Source: an uncultured Bacilli bacterium
Lineage (GTDB): Bacteria; Bacillota_I; Bacilli_A; RF39; UBA660
Direction: 5' to 3'
NCBI GenBank assembly: GCA_934133155.1
Contig: CAKPAT010000006.1
Span: 1 to 22,106, forward strand
DNA length: 22,106 nt
Shown here: positions 1,152 through 18,703 of the stretch, one piece after another
How the letters are laid out: every line of letters begins with the position of its first letter
Numbering within the stretch: the stretch's first letter is position 1
The notes under the pieces: generated by a model
Seen by the model: only the letters and a program-made list of their open reading frames with translations
What the model was told of the DNA's origin: nothing
Databases searched by the model: none
Position numbers and translations under genes: made by a program

Positions 1152-1420
1152 TATTTTCTTAAACCTAATTGTTTAACGATTTCACGGTATCTTGTAACAT
1201 CTTTTTCTCTTAGATATTTCAATAAGCTTTTACGATGACCAACTTTCTTAAGTAAGCCTCTTCTTGAATGGAAATCGTGTTTATGAACTTTCAAATGTTC
1301 TGTAAGTTCTTTAATTTCTTCTGTTAAAATTGCGATTTGAACTTCAGCTGATCCAGTGTCACCTTCAGTTTTTGCATATTTTTTAACAATATCAGCTTTT
1401 TGTAATTTTGTTAAAGCCAT
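1151..1420 (-). CDS. rpsO: 30S ribosomal protein S15
   Basis: S15 binds the central domain of 16S rRNA early in 30S assembly. The 89 residues match the family's usual length from end to end. Characteristic segments are [17 protein letters not shown] near residues 20-36, [12 protein letters not shown] near 46-57 and [17 protein letters not shown] near 66-82. The start is fixed by AGGAGG six bases upstream of the ATG at 1420. It is followed by pnp, and preceded by an unknown six-gene cluster instead of the ribF often found there. The leader upstream has pairing potential consistent with S15 autoregulation. Confidence 0.98.
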
Positions 1421-1498
1421 GTTTATGCCTCCTTTACTTTTAGTGTCTGCTTACTCCTAGATAAAAAGATGGAGTTCTTTTTGTCCAAGAGAAAGTAC
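1421..1498 (-). promoter_or_regulatory. Candidate rpsO leader (S15 autoregulatory RNA)
   Basis: From the predicted transcription start near 1498 to the rpsO start codon there are about 78 untranslated bases. On the minus strand ACTCC pairs perfectly with GGAGT across a 13-base loop. A GGAC...CTCC stretch and an ACTTT/AAAGT pairing close to the ribosome binding site offer alternative folds. S15 commonly represses its own translation by binding such leaders, whose structures differ among lineages. The function is inferred from position and pairing only. Confidence 0.4.
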
Positions 1499-1504
1499 AT
1501 TATT

Positions 1505-1533
1505 AATATACACTAGTATTTAATTTAAATCAA
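1505..1533 (-). promoter_or_regulatory. Promoter of rpsO-pnp
   Basis: The minus strand reads TTGATT (1533-1528), a 17-base spacer, then TATATT (1510-1505), a good sigma-A type match. The -35 box overlaps the stop codon of the preceding unknown gene, for which I see no separate terminator. Read-through from the upstream cluster is therefore also possible. Confidence 0.6.
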
Positions 1534-2582
1534 CGTTTTTTTGTTTTTTGTTTACTTTTTTTAGGTTCTTCTACTTGGTTACTTCTTAATACATCTAAAT
1601 AAAACTGAATATTGTCTTCATTAATTGGTGTTTTTGATTTTATAGGTGTATTTGTCTCTTCTTTTGGCGTGCTTTCTTCCGGTTTTTCAGTGTATTTCAT
1701 AGCAAGCTTTTCAGCGTCGTCTAAGATTAAGCATGGAACATATCTTCCTTCATTTGAAAGTTGTTGGGCTAAAGATTGGTACGTTTCAATTAATCTTTGA
1801 CTTTTTTGGATCAATGCGACAATATCCCTGTTTTGAGCTTTGAGTTTTTCATCAGTAACAATTTTATTTTGTTCTTGCATACTTTTTAAAACAAGCTCTT
1901 TTCTTTTAGTTTCTTTAAGTATTTCTTCATCTAATTTAGTTACGACCTCTAGCTGCATCTTAGGAAAGGCATCACTTTTTGAAAGTTCGCACTTTTTATC
2001 TTTTAGTTTTTCTTCTTTTTTGTCTAAGTAATATTTGAGAAGTAATTTTAGACCTGATAATTCGTCTAGTTCCGCTAGTATTCCTCCTTTATAAAAACTA
2101 TATATGAGAATTGGGAAAATTGACAAAAAGTAATAGCCTACATATCCGCCAGCATCTGTGACGGCCTCTAAGGAAGGTGCAAATACTGGAGCTAAGGCAA
2201 TAATGGTAGCTATGATTGATATTACTTTTAATACTTCTATTACTTTTTCTGTCTTCCAAGATGTGTTTGTTCTTTTTACTATTAGAAAGTGAATTAATCT
2301 TTGCATTTTATTTGGTTTAAAATATTTTCTCATTTTTTTAGGAAGTACTTTTTTATCGGCATTATCAATTACATTGTCTACGTGATATGAAGTATGATTT
2401 AGATAATCAGACATGATGTTGCTTCTTGTTTGAGCAAGCTTTTCGGAAGTTTGCTCTAAATCTAATTGGACTATTTTATCTTCTGGCTTAATACTTGTTA
2501 AAGCTTCTTCTAAAGAGGATTGTGTTTCAGCATACTTTATTTGTATTTCTTTTATTCTAGCATAAATTTTTTGAATTTCCAT
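1530..2582 (-). CDS. Unknown two-TM coiled-coil protein, last gene of the six-gene cluster (paralogue of the next two)
   Basis: I do not recognise a named family. The 350 residues show a charged, heptad-like N-terminus (1-60) and a conserved block at about 53-110 (RSNIMSDYLNHT, then KKMRKYFKPNKMQRLI). Two membrane segments lie near 115-134 and 144-165. A long charged coiled coil follows (about 175-275), then a Glu/Pro/Thr-rich, strongly basic tail ending KSKQKTKKR. The same N-terminal block occurs in the upstream 293-aa protein (RENITKDINNHT..., KDVRKIAHPSKISKL), so the two are paralogues. There is no signal peptide, so both ends may be cytoplasmic around a membrane hairpin. The ATG overlaps the previous stop by one base (TAATG), suggesting translational coupling. 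Confidence 0.88.
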   Translation of the reverse strand: MEIQKIYARIKEIQIKYAETQSSLEEALTSIKPEDKIVQLDLEQTSEKLAQTRSNIMSDYLNHTSYHVDNVIDNADKKVLPKKMRKYFKPNKMQRLIHFLIVKRTNTSWKTEKVIEVLKVISIIATIIALAPVFAPSLEAVTDAGGYVGYYFLSIFPILIYSFYKGGILAELDELSGLKLLLKYYLDKKEEKLKDKKCELSKSDAFPKMQLEVVTKLDEEILKETKRKELVLKSMQEQNKIVTDEKLKAQNRDIVALIQKSQRLIETYQSLAQQLSNEGRYVPCLILDDAEKLAMKYTEKPEESTPKEETNTPIKSKTPINEDNIQFYLDVLRSNQVEEPKKSKQKTKKR

Positions 2583-3463
2583 TATTTTCTTCCTTTCCTT
2601 TTTTGGAAGCCCATAGACTCACCATCTGGAATTACTGGAAGTTTTCTTGTCATATCAGGAATCACTTCACCTTCGGCAAATAATATTGATATTAATCTAT
2701 TTTTTTCATGTAACAAGTTTTCTTTTCTATCTAGCAAATTTTGTATTATTCTATTTTGTCTCATTAAATCTTTATCATGAGCTTGCTCACGTTTTAACAT
2801 TTCTATTCTTCCGTCTTCATTATTGCTTTCTTCAATTATTTTTCTATCAATGTTATTTACGGCTTCTATTTCTAAATCATGATATCTATTACTTCTTATT
2901 AGTCCTTTTAATACTTCATTTTCTTCTTCTTCTTTTTCTTCTAACGCAACTTCACAAAAGCCTTTGAAAAGTGATATATCACCATATTTTCTATAAATGA
3001 TACATTCTACTGTTTCGGTAATTACAATAGCGGGGAGGAAAAAAAGCATAAGTATTGCGTTTCCAGAAAAGAGACCGGTAATTAAAAATACACTAATTAG
3101 AATTCTTTTGACACATTCAAGATTTATATCTGTTTTTCTGGTTGTTTTTATTCTTTTTTTTGCTATTTTTGTAAATAATTTAGATATTTTACTTGGATGA
3201 GCAATTTTTCTAACATCTTTTGATAATGATTTTTCTTTAGCGTGCTTAATTACTTCGTAAACACTATTTGCCGTGTGATTATTAATATCTTTTGTTATAT
3301 TTTCTCTTACACTTGTAAGTTCTGGTATGCTTGCTCTTGGAGTTTCTTTTTCTTTTTCTTTTCTTATCTTAGGTTTTCTTAAAATTCTTCTTAATTCTTC
3401 ATCAATTTTATTTATTTCATTTGAAATTTCATTTATTCTTTGATAAATTTCTTGCACATTCAT
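2582..3463 (-). CDS. Unknown two-TM coiled-coil protein, fifth gene of the six-gene cluster
   Basis: The family is not recognised. This 293-aa protein has a coiled coil at 1-30, a paralogous block at 53-110 (NHTANSVYEVIKHA, then HPSKISKLFTKIAKKR) and two hydrophobic segments near 117-135 and 136-155. A long Glu/Lys/Asn-rich coiled coil follows (about 170-265), with a short FAEGEVIPD stretch and a basic end, FQKRKGRK. The downstream gene has the equivalent features in the same order, including SNEGRYVP opposite FAEGEVIP. AAGGAG precedes the ATG. The start lies two bases after the previous stop and the end overlaps the next start by one base, so the cluster is probably translated as a coupled unit. 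A structural or scaffolding membrane role is a guess. Confidence 0.87.
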   Translation of the reverse strand: MNVQEIYQRINEISNEINKIDEELRRILRKPKIRKEKEKETPRASIPELTSVRENITKDINNHTANSVYEVIKHAKEKSLSKDVRKIAHPSKISKLFTKIAKKRIKTTRKTDINLECVKRILISVFLITGLFSGNAILMLFFLPAIVITETVECIIYRKYGDISLFKGFCEVALEEKEEEENEVLKGLIRSNRYHDLEIEAVNNIDRKIIEESNNEDGRIEMLKREQAHDKDLMRQNRIIQNLLDRKENLLHEKNRLISILFAEGEVIPDMTRKLPVIPDGESMGFQKRKGRK

Positions 3464-3465
3464 TT

Positions 3466-4200
3466 TTATTTTCTCCTTAATGTTTTTTGATTTCCTTTTT
3501 CTTCTTTAGACTGAATTATACTGTTCATTATTTCATTATATTCTTGATTAAGACTGGCTTTTTCAATTTGAAGTTCTAGAAAGTAATCTTCATTTAATGC
3601 TTCTATATTTGGTGTTTGACTTAATATTTCTTCTTTTTGCATGATTTTACTATCAATAATATCAATTGCTTTTGATTTGATTTTTTTATCTTTTAAGTAT
3701 TCAAGTACTTCTTCATCTTCTTTTTCAATATGTTTACCTAATATGAGTTTTGTTAGTCTAATGTTTGGATTAATAATGCTGACTGTTCCTATAATCATTA
3801 GAAATATAGCAATGGCTGGTGAAAAAGGTATTTTTAAAAGAAAAGTTAAAAAACCTATTAAAATATAAAGTGATGTATTTAAAACTGCTGAATTATTTTG
3901 ATAAATTTTACGAATTTTTCTTTTTATTTTATTTGGATAAAAATAATTTTGAATTTTTTCAGAAAAGATTTTTTTTGAAAAAAGTGGGATAATTTTTTTA
4001 GCTTGATGAATAGATAATGGTTTTGATAGTAATTCTTCTTTTAATCTTTCTAATCTAGCTTTTTCTATTTTAGCTTTTTCTATTTCTTCTTTTTTTGTTT
4101 TATTTTGGGAATTTTCGATAAGCATTTGGGATAATTCTTTTTCAATTTCATTTATTCTATCTTTAATGTCTTTTATTTGATTGAAGTTTATTTTTGACAT
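3466..4200 (-). CDS. Unknown two-TM coiled-coil protein, fourth gene of the six-gene cluster
   Basis: The family is not recognised. In 244 residues the order is: coiled coil at 5-60, a basic segment at 66-102 containing YFYPNKIKRKIRKIY, two membrane helices near 107-124 and 127-145, a second coiled coil at 155-235, and a basic tail ending KTLRRK. The YFYPNKIKR stretch matches YFKPNKMQR in the 350-aa protein, placing it in the same family although the rest has diverged. The predicted start has AAGGGAAG upstream. It overlaps the previous gene by 13 bases and is followed two bases later by the next start. Confidence 0.86.
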   Translation of the reverse strand: MSKINFNQIKDIKDRINEIEKELSQMLIENSQNKTKKEEIEKAKIEKARLERLKEELLSKPLSIHQAKKIIPLFSKKIFSEKIQNYFYPNKIKRKIRKIYQNNSAVLNTSLYILIGFLTFLLKIPFSPAIAIFLMIIGTVSIINPNIRLTKLILGKHIEKEDEEVLEYLKDKKIKSKAIDIIDSKIMQKEEILSQTPNIEALNEDYFLELQIEKASLNQEYNEIMNSIIQSKEEKGNQKTLRRK

Positions 4201-4730
4201 TTTTTTCTTCCCTTCGTTAATGTTTTGGTTTTTTCTATGTAAGGGATATTTACTGGAGTTATATCATGCTTTATTTCTCTTTTAGCACTTTTGATTTTTT
4301 CTTCTTTTTCAGCTTTTTTTATTTCTAAGTTTACAAGCATTTCTTCTATTTGACTTTTACTATAACTTCTTTTTTGATTGATGGTAAAAATGGTTAAATT
4401 AGCACCTATTATAGATAGGCCTAGTAAGGATGCTGAAATGATTTCAGTGCCTGGATTTAACATAAAAATGATAATAGCTAGGACTGTAATTAGGGCTAAT
4501 ATTTGAGATATTCTTTGTTTGATTTTACTTTGATATATATCTTCTTCCTCGGTTAAGTGCTTTTTAAATAATGTTTTTAAAACTTTACTCCATGTTATTT
4601 TTTGACACTTTTGTCTTAGGTTATGATTTAAAATTATTCTTAGGTTTTCTATTTCACTAATTTCTTTTTCATTTTTTTCTATTAATTTTTCATATCCTTC
4701 TATTACTTCTTCAGATAAATCTTCTCTCAT
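4188..4730 (-). CDS. Unknown two-TM coiled-coil protein, third gene of the six-gene cluster
   Basis: The family is not recognised. The 180 residues comprise an acidic helical N-terminus (1-45), a basic patch with WSKVLKTLFKKHL near 47-59, two hydrophobic segments near 74-91 and 96-117, a charged helix at 122-155, and a basic C-terminus ending KGRKKCQK. The layout repeats that of its neighbours in shorter form, but sequence identity to them is not obvious by eye. The ATG overlaps the previous gene's TGA as ATGA, with AAAGGA upstream. Common ancestry with the others is inferred from layout and context. Confidence 0.84.
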   Translation of the reverse strand: MREDLSEEVIEGYEKLIEKNEKEISEIENLRIILNHNLRQKCQKITWSKVLKTLFKKHLTEEEDIYQSKIKQRISQILALITVLAIIIFMLNPGTEIISASLLGLSIIGANLTIFTINQKRSYSKSQIEEMLVNLEIKKAEKEEKIKSAKREIKHDITPVNIPYIEKTKTLTKGRKKCQK

Positions 4731-5038
4731 AATTTTTTTCCTTTCATTTTTTCTTCATATTCATAGCATTCGTCTTCTAATAAGTTTTTATTTTTTGAAA
4801 GTGAAGCGATATATGCTTGCACTAAAATGGTATATAAACTACTGCCAATTCCCATGATTGAGGCAGATATTTTTAGATTTGGTAAGCAACTTATAACAGA
4901 TATAACTTCAGCAATTAATGACGTGGTTATTAAAATTAGACCACCTGTTCTATGAATTTTAGTTTTTTCTAAGCTTATTTTTAAGCTTTCTAATTCTTTT
5001 TTATTTATTTGGTATATGATTTCTGGTTTTTCTTGCAT
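4727..5038 (-). CDS. Unknown small two-TM protein, second gene of the six-gene cluster
   Basis: This is the shortest member, 103 aa and not recognised. It has a charged N-terminal helix (1-30), two hydrophobic helices near 32-51 and 56-79 with short polar ends, and a charged tail ending KMKGKKL. A 2TM plus coiled-coil layout of this size recalls SLATT-type 2TM proteins of nucleotide-signalling conflict systems, but no partner nucleotidyltransferase or SLOG gene lies nearby, so I do not assign it. GAAGGAGA lies upstream of the ATG. It overlaps the preceding gene by 34 bases and the next by 4, which argues that it is really translated despite its size. Confidence 0.8.
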   Translation of the reverse strand: MQEKPEIIYQINKKELESLKISLEKTKIHRTGGLILITTSLIAEVISVISCLPNLKISASIMGIGSSLYTILVQAYIASLSKNKNLLEDECYEYEEKMKGKKL

Positions 5039-5802
5039 ATTTCTTCTCCTTCTATATTTTCTTCTAAGGCATTATAAAGTATTTGAATGTCTATGGTTAA
5101 TTCTTGTTTTTGTTTAAGCAGTATTTCTCTTTGCACTTCTATTGGGCTAAATCTCAATACTTTCGTTTTCCCCTTTTTTTCTTTTCTTTTTTCTTCTAAA
5201 TCGTTTTCTAAGCTTTTAAGCATAACATGATATATATCTTCTTTTTTGTTTTTGTTGAAATATTTTTTTAATATTTTTTGATGTCTTTCTTGAACTATCA
5301 TGTCATAAAAATTTGGTACGAAATCAACAAATGCAAAATTCATGGCTGTTAGACACACCCATATAACAATATTTATTATATCGTGAGTTGCACCAACTAC
5401 AGGAAATAAAACTAAACTTAATATAGAAAGTATTTCAAACATTATTTTTATTTTTTTTTCTTTGTTTTGGTATTCAGTATCACTTATAATGTATTTTTTT
5501 ATTTTTTGTATTTTTCTTGGAAGTTTTTGTGCTTCTTTTAAATATTTCTTTTGCCAGTATTTTTGACTTTTAATTTTAGAAAAGCTTTCTTGATCTTTAG
5601 ATATATACGCTTCTTTTAGGCTTTCAGCTTTTCCTTCTAGAGTTCCGATTTCTTTTTCTATATTAAATGCATCATCACTATAGGCTCCTTTTTGAATGTA
5701 ATATTGTCTTTGCAGGCTATCTATTTTTTGGTTTATAAATTCTCTTTGCCGTCTTTTTTCACTTATTAGTTCTAGTATTTCATCATTTGTTTTAGTATTC
5801 AT
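5005..5802 (-). CDS. Unknown two-TM coiled-coil protein, first gene of the six-gene cluster
   Basis: The family is not recognised. The 265 residues show a long charged coiled coil with Gln/Arg/Lys heptads (5-100), a very basic stretch near 93-104, two membrane helices near 118-138 and 141-162, then charged helices (168-250). The end is basic (CKKNQKSYTK). It is the promoter-proximal gene: TTGACA and TATAAT lie just upstream, and AAAGGA precedes the ATG at 5802 by about seven bases. It overlaps the next start by 34 bases. It shares the coil-2TM-coil-basic-tail plan with the five downstream genes but lacks a clear copy of the PNK motif seen in the later ones. Confidence 0.86.
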   Translation of the reverse strand: MNTKTNDEILELISEKRRQREFINQKIDSLQRQYYIQKGAYSDDAFNIEKEIGTLEGKAESLKEAYISKDQESFSKIKSQKYWQKKYLKEAQKLPRKIQKIKKYIISDTEYQNKEKKIKIMFEILSILSLVLFPVVGATHDIINIVIWVCLTAMNFAFVDFVPNFYDMIVQERHQKILKKYFNKNKKEDIYHVMLKSLENDLEEKRKEKKGKTKVLRFSPIEVQREILLKQKQELTIDIQILYNALEENIEGEEICKKNQKSYTK

Positions 5803-5826
5803 ATTTTTTTCCTTTCGTGGGATACT

Positions 5827-5854
5827 ATTATATTCTTTTTTTGTAATTTGTCAA
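5827..5854 (-). promoter_or_regulatory. Promoter of the six-gene membrane cluster
   Basis: The minus strand has a perfect -35 TTGACA (5854-5849), a 16-base spacer, and a perfect -10 TATAAT (5832-5827). Predicted transcription starts near 5820, leaving a leader of about 17 bases with AAAGGA. It follows the truB terminator, so the cluster is an independent transcription unit. The near-consensus boxes suggest substantial expression. Confidence 0.8.
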
Positions 5855-5862
5855 ATTTACAC

Positions 5863-5894
5863 AAAAAAGTATTACTTTATTTTCAGTAATACTT
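5863..5894 (-). terminator. Intrinsic terminator of cysS-truB
   Basis: On the minus strand AAGTATTACT and AGTAATACTT form a perfect 10-bp stem around an 8-base loop, followed by a run of Ts (the A-run at 5863-5868 on the plus strand). The stem contains the last truB codons and its TAA stop. Confidence 0.8.
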
Positions 5895-6717
5895 CAATTT
5901 TCATGACATTACCATCTTTTTTATAGATCGCAAGTTCTTCATTTCCATCTAAAAAGAGAACTTTATTTGGGTAATTTCCAGTTAGTTTTGCACCATTTAA
6001 AATTTTTTCTTTTTCATTTGTCTGCATACTTGAAATATCTAAAACATCTTTTATTTTTAAAAGTTTGGTATCTTTAGTTATCTCTTCTAAATTTAAACAA
6101 TCTTCTATTTTAAATATACCTTGTTTAGTTCTTTGTAAATTACTCATTGTACCAATAACATTTAGTTCTTTTAAAATATCATTTATTAAACTTCTAATAT
6201 ATGTTCCTTTTGTTACTAGGGCTTTAAAGGTGAATTTATTTTCTTTAAATTCTAAAAGCTCTATTTTTTTTATAGTGACAGTTTTTGTGGGCACGTCAAC
6301 TTTCTCGCCTTTTCTGGCATACTCATATAATTTCTTGCCATCTATTTTGACAGCAGAATATAAAGGGACTTTCTGATCATAGGTTTTTTCAAAACTTTTT
6401 AAAACTTTTAGTAAACTTTCTTTATCTATTTTTTCTTCTTTTTCTTCTAAAATTTTACCAGTTATATCAAGTGTGTCTGTTTTGATTCCTAAAGTGACTT
6501 CGGCGATGTATTCTTTTTCTTTACTTGCTAGGATTTCATTTAGTTTGGTGTATCTATTTAATGTGATAACTAAGACACCAGTGGCTAGAGGATCTAATGT
6601 GCCACTATGGCCGACTTTTTTTGTCCCATATATTTTGCTTATTTTGTTTACAACATCTCTACTAGTTATGTCTTTAGGCTTATTTATTAAAATAAGGCCG
6701 TTATTTAATGAGTTCAA
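5872..6717 (-). CDS. truB: tRNA pseudouridine(55) synthase TruB
   Basis: TruB isomerises U55 to pseudouridine in the T loop of tRNAs. The 281 residues carry the family motifs in order: GLILINKPKDITSRDVV near 7-23, GHSGTLDPLATGVLVI at 36-51 with catalytic Asp42, VPLYSAVKIDGKKLYEYARKGE near 117-138 and KGTYIRSLINDI near 170-181. The C-terminal PUA-like part is short. The start at 6717 lies inside the end of cysS (17-base overlap), so the two are one operon. Downstream in many Bacillota come ribF and rpsO. Here a terminator and an unknown cluster intervene. Confidence 0.96.
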   Translation of the reverse strand: MNSLNNGLILINKPKDITSRDVVNKISKIYGTKKVGHSGTLDPLATGVLVITLNRYTKLNEILASKEKEYIAEVTLGIKTDTLDITGKILEEKEEKIDKESLLKVLKSFEKTYDQKVPLYSAVKIDGKKLYEYARKGEKVDVPTKTVTIKKIELLEFKENKFTFKALVTKGTYIRSLINDILKELNVIGTMSNLQRTKQGIFKIEDCLNLEEITKDTKLLKIKDVLDISSMQTNEKEKILNGAKLTGNYPNKVLFLDGNEELAIYKKDGNVMKIEVLLKIK

Positions 6718-8213: not shown

Positions 8214-9086
8214 ATGTATAACGATAATAGTATTTCACTTAAAGGCGTGTTTTTTAAAATTTTACTAATTGTTATTGCTTTATTTATTTTAATGTATTTG
8301 TTTCCTACTAAAGGTTTTGTAACAAATTATGTAGATAGTAAGGTTTCTTCTAATAATAGTTTTAATAACAATCTTTTGACTATGGCGACGGTTGCTAGTG
8401 GATATTTTAATGAATCTAGACTTCCAGAAAATACGAATGACAAAGTTAAAATTACTTTAGCTGAGATGCTTGATCAAAAAATGATTATTGCACTTAAGGA
8501 TGATGGTAAGTCTTGCGATAGTAATAAGTCTTATGCAATTGTTACTAAAGAAGATTCTGAGTATACTTTAAAGGTTAATTTGTCTTGCGGCAATAAAGAG
8601 GATTACATTGTTTCTCATATGGGACTTTCTGGAACGCAGTTTCCCAGTACCAGCACCGCAAGGTGCGAGTTTCTAAAAAATCTTGATGCGACTTGGTCCT
8701 ATGGTGATTGGTCAAGTTGGAGTAGTAAAAAGGTTTCAGAATCTGATACTCGTCAAGTGCAAACTAAAAATGTAAGCGTTAAAACTTCTGATAAACAAGT
8801 AGCTCATGAAACGGAAGAAAAATTTGATGCAACGAGGTATATTTATAGTAGTGGCAAAACTTATTATGTTTGTGGCAATAAGTATGATAATGCAGGTACT
8901 TATGAAAATGAAGTTTCATGTATTAAGAAAACAGTAACTTATACTACTGAACCAATTTATAATAATGTCACTTATTACAGATACCGTGATAAGGTTTTAT
9001 CGCCTCAGACTGATGTAAAGTGGTCAGATTGTGATGATAAATCTTTACTTGATGATGGTTATGTTTTAACGGGTAATAAAAACTAG
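8214..9086 (+). CDS. Membrane-anchored extracytoplasmic protein with WSxWS (thrombospondin-like) segment
   Basis: No named family is assigned. Of 290 residues, 12-32 form one hydrophobic helix after a short polar N-terminus, with no clear cleavage site. The rest is probably outside the cell. Residues 77-132 contain a Cys101/Cys125 pair. At 161-170 lies WSYGDWSSWS, and the segment after it is Ser/Thr-rich with alternating polar residues. Two further cysteines (220, 236) precede VTYYRYRDKV (252-261) and a second Trp-Ser segment, VKWSDCDD. The WSxWS pattern recalls thrombospondin type 1 repeats, but disulphide spacing does not prove it. Six cysteines in the outer part suggest disulphides. It is monocistronic, with its own promoter and a terminator over its stop codon. 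Confidence 0.9.
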   Translation: MYNDNSISLKGVFFKILLIVIALFILMYLFPTKGFVTNYVDSKVSSNNSFNNNLLTMATVASGYFNESRLPENTNDKVKITLAEMLDQKMIIALKDDGKSCDSNKSYAIVTKEDSEYTLKVNLSCGNKEDYIVSHMGLSGTQFPSTSTARCEFLKNLDATWSYGDWSSWSSKKVSESDTRQVQTKNVSVKTSDKQVAHETEEKFDATRYIYSSGKTYYVCGNKYDNAGTYENEVSCIKKTVTYTTEPIYNNVTYYRYRDKVLSPQTDVKWSDCDDKSLLDDGYVLTGNKN

Positions 9087-9215: not shown

Positions 9216-9632
9216 ATGGTAGATAAGTACAAGTTTATATATGCTAATGAGAATGAATTTAAAAAGCTTGAAAGTTCACTTAAGAAGTACAATATGCTTG
9301 CTTTCAAAAAGCTTTATTTTGAATATTATCCAAAATTAAAAGCTGGTATTTTTATTGGTGATGTTGTTTCTAAAAATGATAATTTATTTGATTATGAAGT
9401 TAAGTTACCTACCGATGCCCTATTTACAAAAGTTCATGGTGAGGTTAAGCTCCATTATCAAGTTAATGAAGATACTAAAGTTGTGATGTTAATTACTTTA
9501 CTTCCTAAAGATATTTTAAGTGAAGGTCATCAGTCAGAGCTTGTTACTTATAAGGGCGTTATGGTATCTAAAGAACATTCTGATAAGGATATGTTTAAGA
9601 TTAATTTACTTAATATGATAAATAAAGGATAG
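9216..9632 (+). CDS. Unrecognised 138-aa soluble protein
   Basis: I do not recognise it. It has no signal peptide or membrane segment. The first 40 residues are helical and basic (KYKFIYANENEFKKLESSLKK). The middle looks beta-rich, with PTDALFTKVHGEVKLHYQV near 68-86 and VVMLITLLPKDIL near 91-103, and it ends NLLNMINKG. The reading frame is supported by its own promoter, a strong AGGAGGG five bases from the ATG, and normal codon use. It stands alone between the membrane-anchored protein gene and the tRNAs. An AT-only hairpin (AGTTTTT/AAAAACCT region, about 9629-9652) follows its stop but lacks a T-run. Confidence 0.85.
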   Translation: MVDKYKFIYANENEFKKLESSLKKYNMLAFKKLYFEYYPKLKAGIFIGDVVSKNDNLFDYEVKLPTDALFTKVHGEVKLHYQVNEDTKVVMLITLLPKDILSEGHQSELVTYKGVMVSKEHSDKDMFKINLLNMINKG

Positions 9633-10281: not shown

Positions 10282-10322
10282 AAAAAAAAAATGATATTAG
10301 TTTCAAATCCTAATATCATTTT
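10282..10322. terminator. Bidirectional terminator between tRNA-Leu(CAG) and the SGNH gene
   Basis: ATGATATTAG (10291-10300) pairs with CTAATATCAT (10310-10319), extended by AAA/TTT. The plus strand continues with TTTT and T-rich sequence. The minus strand continues with nine Ts (the A-run at 10282-10290). The TGA stop of the minus-strand gene lies in the stem. Confidence 0.85.
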
Positions 10323-11449
10323 CTATATTTTTTTACTTTTTGCATTTTCTTTATATCATTTGCTATGTTCTCGTCTGGTGATAATTGATAAAAATCAAAT
10401 GGGTATCTACTTTGTATAAACGTTTCAACCTCTTTTAAGAATGCATTATAATCACCATTTTGGCTTTCATATCTAGCTATACTATCTTCTATAACGCATA
10501 AAGCGTCATTTTTATTATATCTTGCACTTTTTATGTCATTGGCATTACTTAAAGAAAATAGTTTTCTATCAATGTCTATCATTAAATCTCTCATGTAGTA
10601 GTTTTCAATTATGCTGTTTTCAATTTCATTTAATAAGTGATAATATTCTGCTTCGTTATAATGAGGGTCTGGTAAAATCATACCATTTTTTGTCTTATAG
10701 AATGTTTGTCTTTGAAATGATGGAATATATGTTACTCCAGCAAATTCTTTAGATAATCTTTTTAACTTTTTATTTAACAATATTTCAGTTATATCGGTAT
10801 TAACTAATCTTGGTCCACCACATAAATATATTTGTGTATGACTATTTTTTTCTCTATTGTTATTTTGAATTAAGTCTAATATTGCATATATTCCAGATAT
10901 ATCTCTTTGAACTGCGTTTGATATGCTTGGTATTGTAAGTGAACCATGTCTTGTTATTATATCTAAAAATGAACCTGTACCTAAGTTCAATATTATGATA
11001 TTTGCTTCTTTTGGATTATTTCTAAAGATAATGTCCTGGATGTTTTCTTTACTACCATTTGAAAAGTACTCTTCTATTTCTTTAGCGGAAAGCAATAAAT
11101 TTCCGTCTTTTAAAGCTCGTATATAATCTTCTTTAGTCCAGTTAAAACAATCTTCTTCGGTGCAGTTTTTTCTAATCCATTCTATTACGGTAAGTGAGTT
11201 ATTATTCTCACTTCTTGATAAATGACTTTTGTTTACGATTATACCATTTTGTTTGCCACATTCGATTAAGTTTAAATTTCTATCTAAAAGTGCCCTTCCA
11301 GGCTCAGACATTGAAAATCCATTACTTATAGAATTACCCATAGCAGTAAGTGTTAATATATCTTTTGGATAAGCTTTAATAAATTGGATTAATCTTTCAT
11401 TTGTTTCCTCTAGTTTATCTTTTTCAGCTAATGCGTCATAATATACCAT
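10316..11449 (-). CDS. SGNH/GDSL-type hydrolase, cytoplasmic, substrate unknown
   Basis: Probable ester/acyl hydrolase of the SGNH fold. The nucleophile block is TAMGNSISNGFSM with Ser40, in place of the usual GDS. A glycine/Asn block near 155-160 (NLGTGS) fits the oxyanion region. LPDPHYNEAEYYHLL (259-273) supplies the Asp261-x-His263 pair in the family's DxxH/DxH position. The 377 residues exceed a typical 200-250 aa domain, with an extra C-terminal helical part (280-377) ending in a basic VKKYRK tail. There is no signal peptide, unlike many secreted family members. AAAGGGGG precedes the ATG. It is the last gene of a three-gene operon with two unknown paralogues, and its stop lies in a terminator. 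The substrate cannot be named from sequence. Confidence 0.8.
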   Translation of the reverse strand: MVYYDALAEKDKLEETNERLIQFIKAYPKDILTLTAMGNSISNGFSMSEPGRALLDRNLNLIECGKQNGIIVNKSHLSRSENNNSLTVIEWIRKNCTEEDCFNWTKEDYIRALKDGNLLLSAKEIEEYFSNGSKENIQDIIFRNNPKEANIIILNLGTGSFLDIITRHGSLTIPSISNAVQRDISGIYAILDLIQNNNREKNSHTQIYLCGGPRLVNTDITEILLNKKLKRLSKEFAGVTYIPSFQRQTFYKTKNGMILPDPHYNEAEYYHLLNEIENSIIENYYMRDLMIDIDRKLFSLSNANDIKSARYNKNDALCVIEDSIARYESQNGDYNAFLKEVETFIQSRYPFDFYQLSPDENIANDIKKMQKVKKYRK

Positions 11450-11469
11450 ATAATAAAGCCCCCTTTAAT

Positions 11470-12090
11470 TTATAAAACTTTTTTAAGTGTTTTGGTATGT
11501 GCAGTTAAATGATTTAAAAATTCTTCTGATGTTTCATTTGCGATGCTTCTAAAATATCCTTTTACAATATATTCTGTTTGTGGTAAATCATTTTCTTCTA
11601 ATGTTTGGATTAATTTTTGTGCGAGTTCTTTTGTTAATGTGTATATATCACCATTTTTTCCTTGCACACGGTATGTAATCTGATTTCTTTTATTAAATTC
11701 TTCTTCTAAATCGTATGAGCCAATAAATTTATGACTATTGAAACTTTGAACATATGCATTTGATAGTTCACATTGACCTTTTCTAACAATTGAACTACTA
11801 TAAACTTCTGGCCTTAGTAAATGCTGACGGGAGTTAAATAAGCGAATTACTTCTAGATTACTTTTATCTCCTATAAATGCTTTAGCTATATCAAGCGGTG
11901 ATTTTGTGATTAACAATTTATAATTTACTGAAAATTCTAATCTGTAATTTTGTGGTACTAATCTTCTATCAGCATTATAACTTTTTATTAAATCTATGGC
12001 TGCCATATCTTTATCTTCTTTTGCTCTAGAAATAATTGCAGGAATTTTACTTTTATCTATAATTCCTTCAAAACAGTGATCTAATTCCAT
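11470..12090 (-). CDS. Unknown protein, paralogue of the upstream 233-aa protein
   Basis: No family is recognised. The 206 residues lack membrane segments or a signal peptide. It aligns by eye over most of its length with the product of the gene just upstream: LIKSYNAD near 34-41 against LIRRSNAD near 36-43, FNSHKFIGSYDLEEE (117-131) against YNSHHFLAPYDMAYE (129-143), and GKNGDIYTLTKELA (144-157) against LKNGQKYRLDVEHA (161-174), with LP then a short helix after it. The shared NSHxFxxxYD stretch is the best candidate for a functional site. AAGGAAGG lies before the ATG. It sits 14 bases after the paralogue and 20 before the SGNH gene, pointing to one operon. Confidence 0.83.
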   Translation of the reverse strand: MELDHCFEGIIDKSKIPAIISRAKEDKDMAAIDLIKSYNADRRLVPQNYRLEFSVNYKLLITKSPLDIAKAFIGDKSNLEVIRLFNSRQHLLRPEVYSSSIVRKGQCELSNAYVQSFNSHKFIGSYDLEEEFNKRNQITYRVQGKNGDIYTLTKELAQKLIQTLEENDLPQTEYIVKGYFRSIANETSEEFLNHLTAHTKTLKKVL

Positions 12091-12104
12091 AAATACCTTC
12101 CTTT

Positions 12105-12806
12105 CTAATGATAGCGATTAAATCCAGATGCATTTCTCAAGTGTACTAGTTTCTTTTGTCTTTGAGCATAATCATCTATTAAGTCTTCTTGTTCTTTTGG
12201 AGTTACACAGTTTTTTGCTACTTCTTCAACTAAACCTTTAGCTGGCAATATACCTCTATCCATTAATGCAAAAACAATTGGAGTAGCATGCTCAACATCT
12301 AATCTATATTTTTGACCATTTTTTAAGGTAAAAACTTTTATTGATGATGTTGCTTGGGTATTTGGATTTACTCTGCCTTCATATGCCATATCATAAGGTG
12401 CTAGAAAATGGTGCGAATTATATCCACAAAAATATCCTGAATTTCCAAAGTTTGTTATTCTTTTTCTAGGTAAAAAACTTTTTACTTTATCTTTTGGCAT
12501 TAATTCAAAAAATGAACTTTGTTTATGTACTAACTTAATTATTTGCATTTCTAAATCATCAGCTTTTTCATTTTCTTGTGATGATAGATATCTCATCATT
12601 TCTTTAGGATCTTGTCCTGAAAATACATTATAGGTTAAAATGAAATTTGCTCTGTTTTCTCCTTTTAATTGTAAACAATCAGCATTACTTCTTCTAATTA
12701 GGTCTGCAACTAGTGCTTGAACTGGATAGTCCCCAGTATAAGTACCTAAAACCTCTAATAGGTCACTTTCGTGCTTTCCACTAACGAATTCTTCTAATAT
12801 ATCCAT
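12105..12806 (-). CDS. Unknown protein, first gene of the SGNH operon
   Basis: No family is recognised. I place the start at the ATG at 12806 (protein MDILEEFV..., 233 aa), because AGGAGA lies just upstream and a near-perfect promoter sits at 12832-12860. An ATG further upstream, at 12890, would have to be read across that promoter. There is no signal peptide or membrane segment. Features are a helical N-terminus, N130-S-H132 with Y138-D139, a KNGQKYRLDVEHA strand-helix region (162-174), and a basic end rich in Arg and His (NRYH). It is a tandem paralogue of the next gene. The duplication and the SGNH partner suggest a joint, unknown function. Confidence 0.83.
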   Translation of the reverse strand: MDILEEFVSGKHESDLLEVLGTYTGDYPVQALVADLIRRSNADCLQLKGENRANFILTYNVFSGQDPKEMMRYLSSQENEKADDLEMQIIKLVHKQSSFFELMPKDKVKSFLPRKRITNFGNSGYFCGYNSHHFLAPYDMAYEGRVNPNTQATSSIKVFTLKNGQKYRLDVEHATPIVFALMDRGILPAKGLVEEVAKNCVTPKEQEDLIDDYAQRQKKLVHLRNASGFNRYH

Positions 12807-12831
12807 ATAATCTCTCCTTTTGGTAAGACGT

Positions 12832-12860
12832 ATTATAGCACAGTATTTTATTTTTTGCAA
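12832..12860 (-). promoter_or_regulatory. Promoter of the three-gene SGNH operon
   Basis: Minus strand: TTGCAA (12860-12855), a 17-base spacer, perfect TATAAT (12837-12832), preceded by TGC (extended -10). Transcription would start near 12825, 19 bases before the ATG at 12806. This decides the start of the first gene. Confidence 0.85.
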
Positions 12861-12882
12861 ATTTTCGTCAAAAAAACACAAA

Positions 12883-12907
12883 AAAATCAAATATTTAATT
12901 TGATTTT
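12883..12907 (-). terminator. Terminator of ppdK-pfkB-smr
   Basis: On the minus strand AAAATCAAAT pairs with ATTTGATTTT (10 bp, perfect) around TAAAT, followed by Ts. The smr TGA stop is inside the right arm. It is AT-only apart from one G-C pair per arm, and separates this operon from the next promoter. Confidence 0.7.
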
Positions 12908-17578: not shown

Positions 17579-17601
17579 AAAAGTAGAAATTATCTACTTT
17601 T
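17579..17601 (-). terminator. Terminator of the topA unit
   Basis: On the minus strand AAAAGTAGA pairs with TCTACTTTT (9 bp) around a 5-base loop, followed by a T-run. The stem begins in the TAA stop of the clamp-motif gene. Confidence 0.8.
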
Positions 17602-18703
17602 AAAAAAGCACAAGCTGATTTGAATTTTCCTTTTTTTCCTTTTTTTCAAGTTCTCTTTCATAGGCTTCTATTCCCATATGTATATTTCTTATGGCCTCAT
17701 AATCTAATAGTTTGCATAAGTCACTGAATGCTTTAGTTTTATTGGCGTCGTTTCCTGAAAAATAAATGCTGCGACATTTTGCGATTTGTTTTGATATATA
17801 ATCATTTTTTACTAAGAAATTCCATAATTTAATGTCTTCAGTTTTTAAAAGTAATATTCTTGCTTCACTTCTGATAAAATCTTCATTTATATCTATCATT
17901 AATAGGTTTTTAATATCTTCACTTTTGTAAGCAATTTTGGGTAAATTTGCTGTTTTTTTACTGGTAATTACAATATGTCCGTTTAATGTGATGCTTGGTG
18001 AGTATCTTTGATTTAAAAAGTATATTAAGCTTTCTTCACTTTCATAATTTGAAGTAAAGGCATCTATTTGTCTTAATGTGAGTTCTAAAACTTTTATATT
18101 TAAAATTTTTCTTAAATCAATTATTTCAATTTTATTATTTGCGGTATAGGCTAGCATATAAATATTATCTGTTTGTTTCATTCCTTTGGACTTATAATAT
18201 TCATCTATACCTAATTCAATTCCCCTTATCACTTTGTATCTACTTAAAGCTTGTTTTAATTTTTCATACCAAAATCCGGCATTTTCTCCTTTTTCTTTAA
18301 CATCCATGTAACTATATAAAGCATCTATTATTCTTTGATTTATAAATCCATGTGTTTGCAGATAATAAATGAGATCTTGATTTTCTGCATGTTTTAAAAA
18401 TCTAAGTGTATAGTCTTCTATTTCATCTACATTTGAAGATAATCTTCTTAGATAACTAAAGTTTTTATATATAGGAGTTAATGTGGCAATATTACCTCTA
18501 CTTTTATAGGTTATTTCTATTTTACCATTTAAAGGTAAGCCTAATTTTTGAAGTAAATCTTTTTCGCTTTCAAATTTTGTAGTGTATGCGTCTATTTCAG
18601 CTAATGTGAAGTTTGTTTCTATATTATCTAGCATGATTGCTACAGAAGAATTATTTAATTTATATATTAAGCGGTATCTTTTACTAACTTTTTTTTCTTT
18701 CAT
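17600..18703 (-). CDS. Unknown internally duplicated protein ending in a beta-clamp-like motif QLVLF
   Basis: No family is recognised. The 367 residues consist of two similar halves, about 10-170 and 181-350. FTLAEIDAYTTKFESEKDLL (32-51) matches LTLRQIDAFTSNYESEESLI (208-227), LNGKIEIT (58-65) matches LNGHIVIT (240-247), and YKVIRGIELGIDEY matches YEAIRNIHMGIEAY at the ends. The last five residues are QLVLF, close to the QL(S/D)LF pentapeptide by which replication and repair proteins bind the DnaN sliding clamp, and here placed at a free C-terminus as is common. A Lys/Glu-rich linker precedes it. There is no membrane segment or signal. It lies three bases downstream of topA, where Bacillus has trmFO. 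A DNA-linked role is inference. Confidence 0.87.
   Translation of the reverse strand: MKEKKVSKRYRLIYKLNNSSVAIMLDNIETNFTLAEIDAYTTKFESEKDLLQKLGLPLNGKIEITYKSRGNIATLTPIYKNFSYLRRLSSNVDEIEDYTLRFLKHAENQDLIYYLQTHGFINQRIIDALYSYMDVKEKGENAGFWYEKLKQALSRYKVIRGIELGIDEYYKSKGMKQTDNIYMLAYTANNKIEIIDLRKILNIKVLELTLRQIDAFTSNYESEESLIYFLNQRYSPSITLNGHIVITSKKTANLPKIAYKSEDIKNLLMIDINEDFIRSEARILLLKTEDIKLWNFLVKNDYISKQIAKCRSIYFSGNDANKTKAFSDLCKLLDYEAIRNIHMGIEAYERELEKKEKKENSNQLVLF

Follow-up and report, generated by a model that had tools for sequence, protein, structure and literature searches.

The six minus-strand genes between truB and rpsO in the window (the whole stretch of 22,106 nucleotides analyzed here) form a real accessory operon that belongs to no known family and has a core of three duplicated members. 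Our preferred reading, to which we give a probability of about 0.45, is that of a lineage-restricted accessory operon encoding six hairpin membrane proteins, P1 to P6, which likely co-assemble and of which P4, P5, and P6 arose by duplication.

The cluster occupies positions 1530–5802, and its direct neighbors on these strands are truB (5872–6717) and rpsO (1151–1420). In the order of transcription it comprises P1 (265 aa, 5005–5802), P2 (103 aa, 4727–5038), P3 (180 aa, 4188–4730), P4 (244 aa, 3466–4200), P5 (293 aa, 2582–3463), and P6 (350 aa, 1530–2582), all of them intact; successive genes from P1 to P4 overlap by 34, 4, and 13 bases, P4 and P5 are 2 bases apart, and P5 and P6 overlap by 1 base. 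The open reading frame coordinates bear out every length, position, overlap, and gap of the initial annotation. A 359-aa version of P6 found in databases results from reading through the TGA of this gene for 9 further residues; we provisionally rejected this reading, as PPDK and other genes of the window also end in TGA. A purine-rich ribosome-binding site precedes each gene, and of the 20 bases upstream of P2, P3, P4, P5, and P6, 20, 20, 20, 18, and 20, respectively, lie inside the preceding gene. The coding frame scored best for synonymous codon usage in 6/6 genes; this usage resembles that of seven housekeeping genes of the window, and nothing in it flags P1–P6 as foreign. P1–P6 are real genes. 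The single consensus promoter claimed earlier also stood, since TTGACA-16-TATAAT at 5854–5827 on the minus strand, 24 bases ahead of the first ATG, is the only exact match in the window, with the qualification that 6 of 100 window shuffles also contained at least one. Between positions 1000 and 6900 we detected one terminator-like site, located after rpsO, which carries little weight because shuffled sequences average 1.6. This layout is consistent with P1–P6 being carried on a single transcript.

Comparison of the six proteins with one another revealed common ancestry for the last three. P5 and P6 align over nearly their full length (BLAST E = 5.9e-16), the P4–P5 score was reached by 0 of 500 window shuffles and the P4–P6 score by 1 of 500, and hhalign aligned P4 with P5+P6 at E = 5.7e-5 (probability 66%). 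By these alignments, P4, P5, and P6 are demonstrably paralogues, that is, diverged tandem duplicates. Among the 15 pairs tested, P3–P4 (8/500 shuffles; BLAST E = 5e-4) and P1–P5 (6/500 shuffles; BLAST E = 0.27) were borderline, P2 showed no relationship, and hhalign returned nothing for P1, P2, or P3. Shared ancestry of all six is therefore not supported; P3 is possibly a distant relative of P4, and P1–P3 appear to have the common architecture without a reliable signal of homology to the rest. The divergent six-member family proposed at the outset is accordingly reduced to P4–P6, for which expansion by duplication holds. The motifs said to be shared by the last three genes fared similarly: a PxK[I/M] block is common to P4–P6, although P6 reads KP in place of Y/HP, and NHT..VI..A occurs only in P5 and P6, is absent from P4, and reads NNT in a metagenomic variant of P5.

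A two-helix membrane hairpin is clear in 5 of the 6 proteins, at approximately residues 120–159 of P1, 34–73 of P2, 74–115 of P3, and 117–170 of P6, and also in P4. Between the two hydrophobic peaks lie 2–16 residues in four proteins and a single residue in P4. P5 is ambiguous: only one hydrophobic block stands out, some 38 residues long, which gives a single 19-residue peak at the 1.3 cut-off and leaves the second helix uncertain, so that the earlier claim of two adjacent membrane helices in each protein holds clearly for P1–P4 and P6 and possibly for P5. In P1–P4 and P6 the loops measure 0–16 residues and contain at most one K/R each, and the 20 residues preceding helix 1 contain 4–7 K/R. 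Under the positive-inside rule, by which K/R-rich flanks are read as cytoplasmic, the short, nearly uncharged loops and the basic N-terminal flanks suggest that both ends of the hairpin proteins are probably cytoplasmic. A screen for this architecture covered the window and 145 retrieved loci (together 1.29 Mb and 1208 ORFs, with some overlapping loci and a bias towards the surroundings of truB). A loose filter passed 75 of the 1208 ORFs, and when this list was read by eye, only five ORFs, all of them in the cluster, combined charged flanks with two hydrophobic peaks next to each other. The combination of hairpin and charged flanks is not due to chance. AlphaFold models of two of the six proteins, P6 and P5, were all-helical and of low confidence (pLDDT 55.6 and 59.1, respectively). 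With the low-confidence P5 model as query, Foldseek found nothing at E ≤ 0.001, its hits being generic coiled coils (best E = 0.075), and sequence searches of the PDB gave no significant match for the cluster proteins queried.

The basic C-terminal ends reported for all six proteins are present, with 4–7 K/R in the last 12 residues compared to 1–7 in 15 other proteins of the window, but those of P2–P5 coincide with, and are partly encoded by, the ribosome-binding site of the next gene. P1 differs in that the residues encoded by the ribosome-binding site of its downstream gene are acidic, and P6 lacks an overlap of this kind. Features that packed genes seem to share, such as basic C-terminal ends, can thus be by-products of embedded ribosome-binding sites and not signs of function.

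Relatives of these proteins were found only as near-identical copies. Among 5.8 billion proteins, P6 and P1 each matched only themselves, and a four-row profile retrieved P3 itself together with a variant of P5 at 96% identity and a fragment of that variant. Scoring in the profile search was confined to the 7992 candidates with the most words in common, and P6's own cluster was missed although it is in the same database, so the search was incomplete and distant relatives may have escaped it. Recurrence amounted to 9 sequences and 6 contigs for P1, 7 and 3 for P6, 6 and 6 for the P5 variant, and 4 and 9 for P3; the copies on metagenome contigs, of which there are several, all have at least 90% identity. 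No relatives were found for P6 and P1 in viral contigs, for P6 in phages, or for P5 and P1 in plasmids. We also searched 44 genomes of the genus of a near relative (hereafter congeners) with P1, P2, P4, and a P5+P6 profile, and none gave a match at E ≤ 0.001 in a search run without a positive-control genome. For comparison, two other genes of the window without a Pfam family, which may evolve more slowly, matched in 18/44 and 11/44 congeners. The initial annotation had regarded absence of co-occurrence in close relatives as evidence against its reading; for the queries tried, such absence is largely what the searches of the 44 congeners appear to show, with copies of 90% identity or more recurring in metagenomes.

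Weaker matches in the congeners, inspected in place at P1's locus and seven others, were rejected: the best were a protein with six hydrophobic peaks for P1 (E = 0.0017), a frame with six stops for P2 (0.0012), a 703-aa frame for P4 (0.0026), and a frame with three stops for query A2 (0.005). Also discarded were matches of A2 in 4 of 291 family genomes, located among housekeeping genes (best E = 1.8e-4, in a frame with a stop), and of query A1 in 2 of 12 genomes (4.1e-4 and 9.5e-4), which are 99-aa proteins beside a gene that we take to be ftsY-like. In 385 order-level genomes, query A4 had 0 matches at E ≤ 0.001, again without a positive-control genome, and P1 had two (1.9e-4 and 6.9e-4), both rejected, namely a 302-aa protein carrying one hydrophobic stretch, at its N-terminal end, and a presumably tRNA-synthetase-like protein.

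The cluster sits between truB and a conserved rpsO promoter. This promoter, TTGATT-17-TATATT (1505–1533, minus strand; 9/12 consensus positions), corresponds to a conserved region before rpsO in the congeners, where a −35 region of TTGCAT type and a −10 resembling TATATT occur together with a leader. The TGA stop of P6 lies inside the −35 hexamer TTGATT (1533–1528), which places the downstream boundary of the cluster exactly at the start of the rpsO promoter. TruB was detected at E ≤ 1e-95 in 24/44 congeners, at no more than 70% identity to that of the window, and the slot was read in 23 of these, the contig of the omitted genome ending 190 bases past truB; the remaining 20 congeners fall outside the slot comparison. 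None of the 23 slots holds the P1–P6 cluster, three of them (L130, L134, and L004) running off before rpsO. Of the 20 slots with both flanks, 8 were empty, having no ORF of at least 70 aa except rpsO, and 12 carried other cargo. Seven of ten cargo proteins scanned matched Pfam (GNAT, HTH, Cna_B in two genomes, T4SS coupling ATPase, PDDEXK_2, and RhuM with Fic) and three matched nothing. The slot is variable among congeners and is a site of accessory cargo. Like known accessory insertion slots, it has the same flanks with other or no cargo in congeners, but no integrase, repeats, or attachment sites were identified here. In L137, the 440-base truB–rpsO interval appears by eye to hold a decayed remnant of an HTH protein, of which L125, L129, and L133–L135 have intact copies in this slot. 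In L001 (8919–15914) the slot contains a gene that is presumably sortase-like and another for a repetitive 2019-aa product, presumably resembling surface proteins.

Other observations concern the surroundings of the cluster. The rpsO (S15) leader (1413–1505, minus strand) contains a conserved stem-loop with a CTCC loop complementary to the ribosome-binding-site GGAG, and it is possibly an autoregulatory pseudoknot. The stem-loop was present in 10/10 congeneric slots inspected without motif selection, with changed loop flanks in L128. We aligned 16 leaders selected with a motif containing the loop and GGAGG, a choice that itself accounts for part of their invariance. In this alignment pairing held in 96.4% of cells, and the covariation score was above 500/500 shuffles; only 2 pairs changed on both sides, a number reached by 468/500 shuffles. 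Rfam at gathering gave no family for this leader. S15 leaders are known to be diverse (PMC4137082; see also PMC4684408). The two Pfam-less genes with relatives in congeners, at about 21%–35% identity, lie at 17600–18703 (minus strand; 18/44), beside topA, and at 11470–12090 (minus strand; 11/44), among three orphan genes at 10316–12890. Two further Pfam-less genes, at 8214–9086 and 9216–9632 on the plus strand, stand just before three tRNA genes, the product of the former having an N-terminal hydrophobic stretch.

Pfam, NCBIfam, PADLOC, and PHROG gave no match above curated cut-off for any of P1–P6 (in PHROGs, none below E = 0.022), in agreement with the initial finding of no recognised family. 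The lowest E-values scatter over unrelated families: ribosomal protein L44 (0.0032, P5 in Pfam), RTasSLATT (0.0063), SctR (0.0072), and IncD (0.012). This scatter bears on the main rival to our reading, which we consider unlikely, namely a defense or conflict module in which SLATT-like hairpin effectors would disturb the membrane on infection and the other proteins would act as sensors or inhibitors. The presence of HTH, RhuM/Fic, and other conflict-type genes in congener slots favors such a module, as does the weak match of P2 (residues 9–84) to the DRT-associated SLATT model of PADLOC (RTasSLATT, PDLC03810), a 2TM effector domain that likewise has two adjacent membrane helices and charged helical flanks. 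However, this match is sub-threshold, and since unrelated families reach like E-values, their scatter is the null against which it must be judged. No SLATT profile was matched significantly, and no Pfam SLATT model was listed for P2 at E ≤ 1; the four libraries recognised no SLATT-type linked sensor or signal-making gene among the six, and the cluster has no partner enzyme, whether nucleotidyltransferase, reverse transcriptase, or nuclease. Chlamydial inclusion membrane (Inc) proteins, which have a bilobed hydrophobic hairpin flanked by helices, are an analogy of architecture only: P3 matched IncD (PF17628) with only 15.8 bits, below the cut-off of 27, and the window has no secretion system.

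The tandem arrangement of diverged paralogues P4–P6, with one architecture and in an accessory slot, could also be explained by a set of immunity or exclusion proteins, each conferring protection from its own bacteriocin, toxin, or phage and diverging by duplication. We find this very improbable, because the window has no cognate toxin, transporter, or secretion gene and long charged cytoplasmic parts are unusual in small immunity proteins. It is likewise unlikely, in our judgment, that the cluster is a degenerate or neutral orphan set, made of young duplicates of K/E-rich helices plus a hydrophobic hairpin with no common machine. Absence from the congeners in the searches made with P1, P2, P4, and the P5+P6 profile, the origin of part of the basic ends, and the lack of reliable homology for P1–P3 would fit such a set; arguments against it are the six intact frames with their dense overlaps, the consensus promoter, and a P5 that stays intact at 96% identity elsewhere in metagenomes. 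A titles-level search of the literature on SLATT, RF39 and orphan genes, and restricted genes found no account of such a cluster. The FESNov catalogue (PMC10849945) similarly gathers novel gene families without known relatives that are exclusive to uncultivated taxa; these are by definition multi-species, whereas the cluster is seen only as copies of at least 90% identity.

Under the preferred reading of a co-assembling accessory operon, the variable chromosomal slot flanked by truB and the rpsO promoter would, in this gut-type, Bacilli-like bacterium with a small genome, hold genes whose products are made together through coupled translation. Each product would be anchored in the cytoplasmic membrane by a tight helical hairpin and keep both of its long charged helical ends in the cytoplasm. 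P4–P6 would have arisen by tandem duplication and then diverged. Because of the gene layout and the protein anatomy, we infer that the products most likely co-assemble through their cytoplasmic helices, which may associate into a membrane-bound scaffold or patch at the inner face. The stronger proposal, a new multi-subunit machine for membrane scaffolding or remodelling, built from six hairpin proteins in one small-genome Bacilli lineage and unlike described complexes, seems improbable. Together, these results suggest that the slot marks where this genus exchanges optional genes and that the products of P1–P6, if they form one complex, would constitute a membrane assembly without described relatives.
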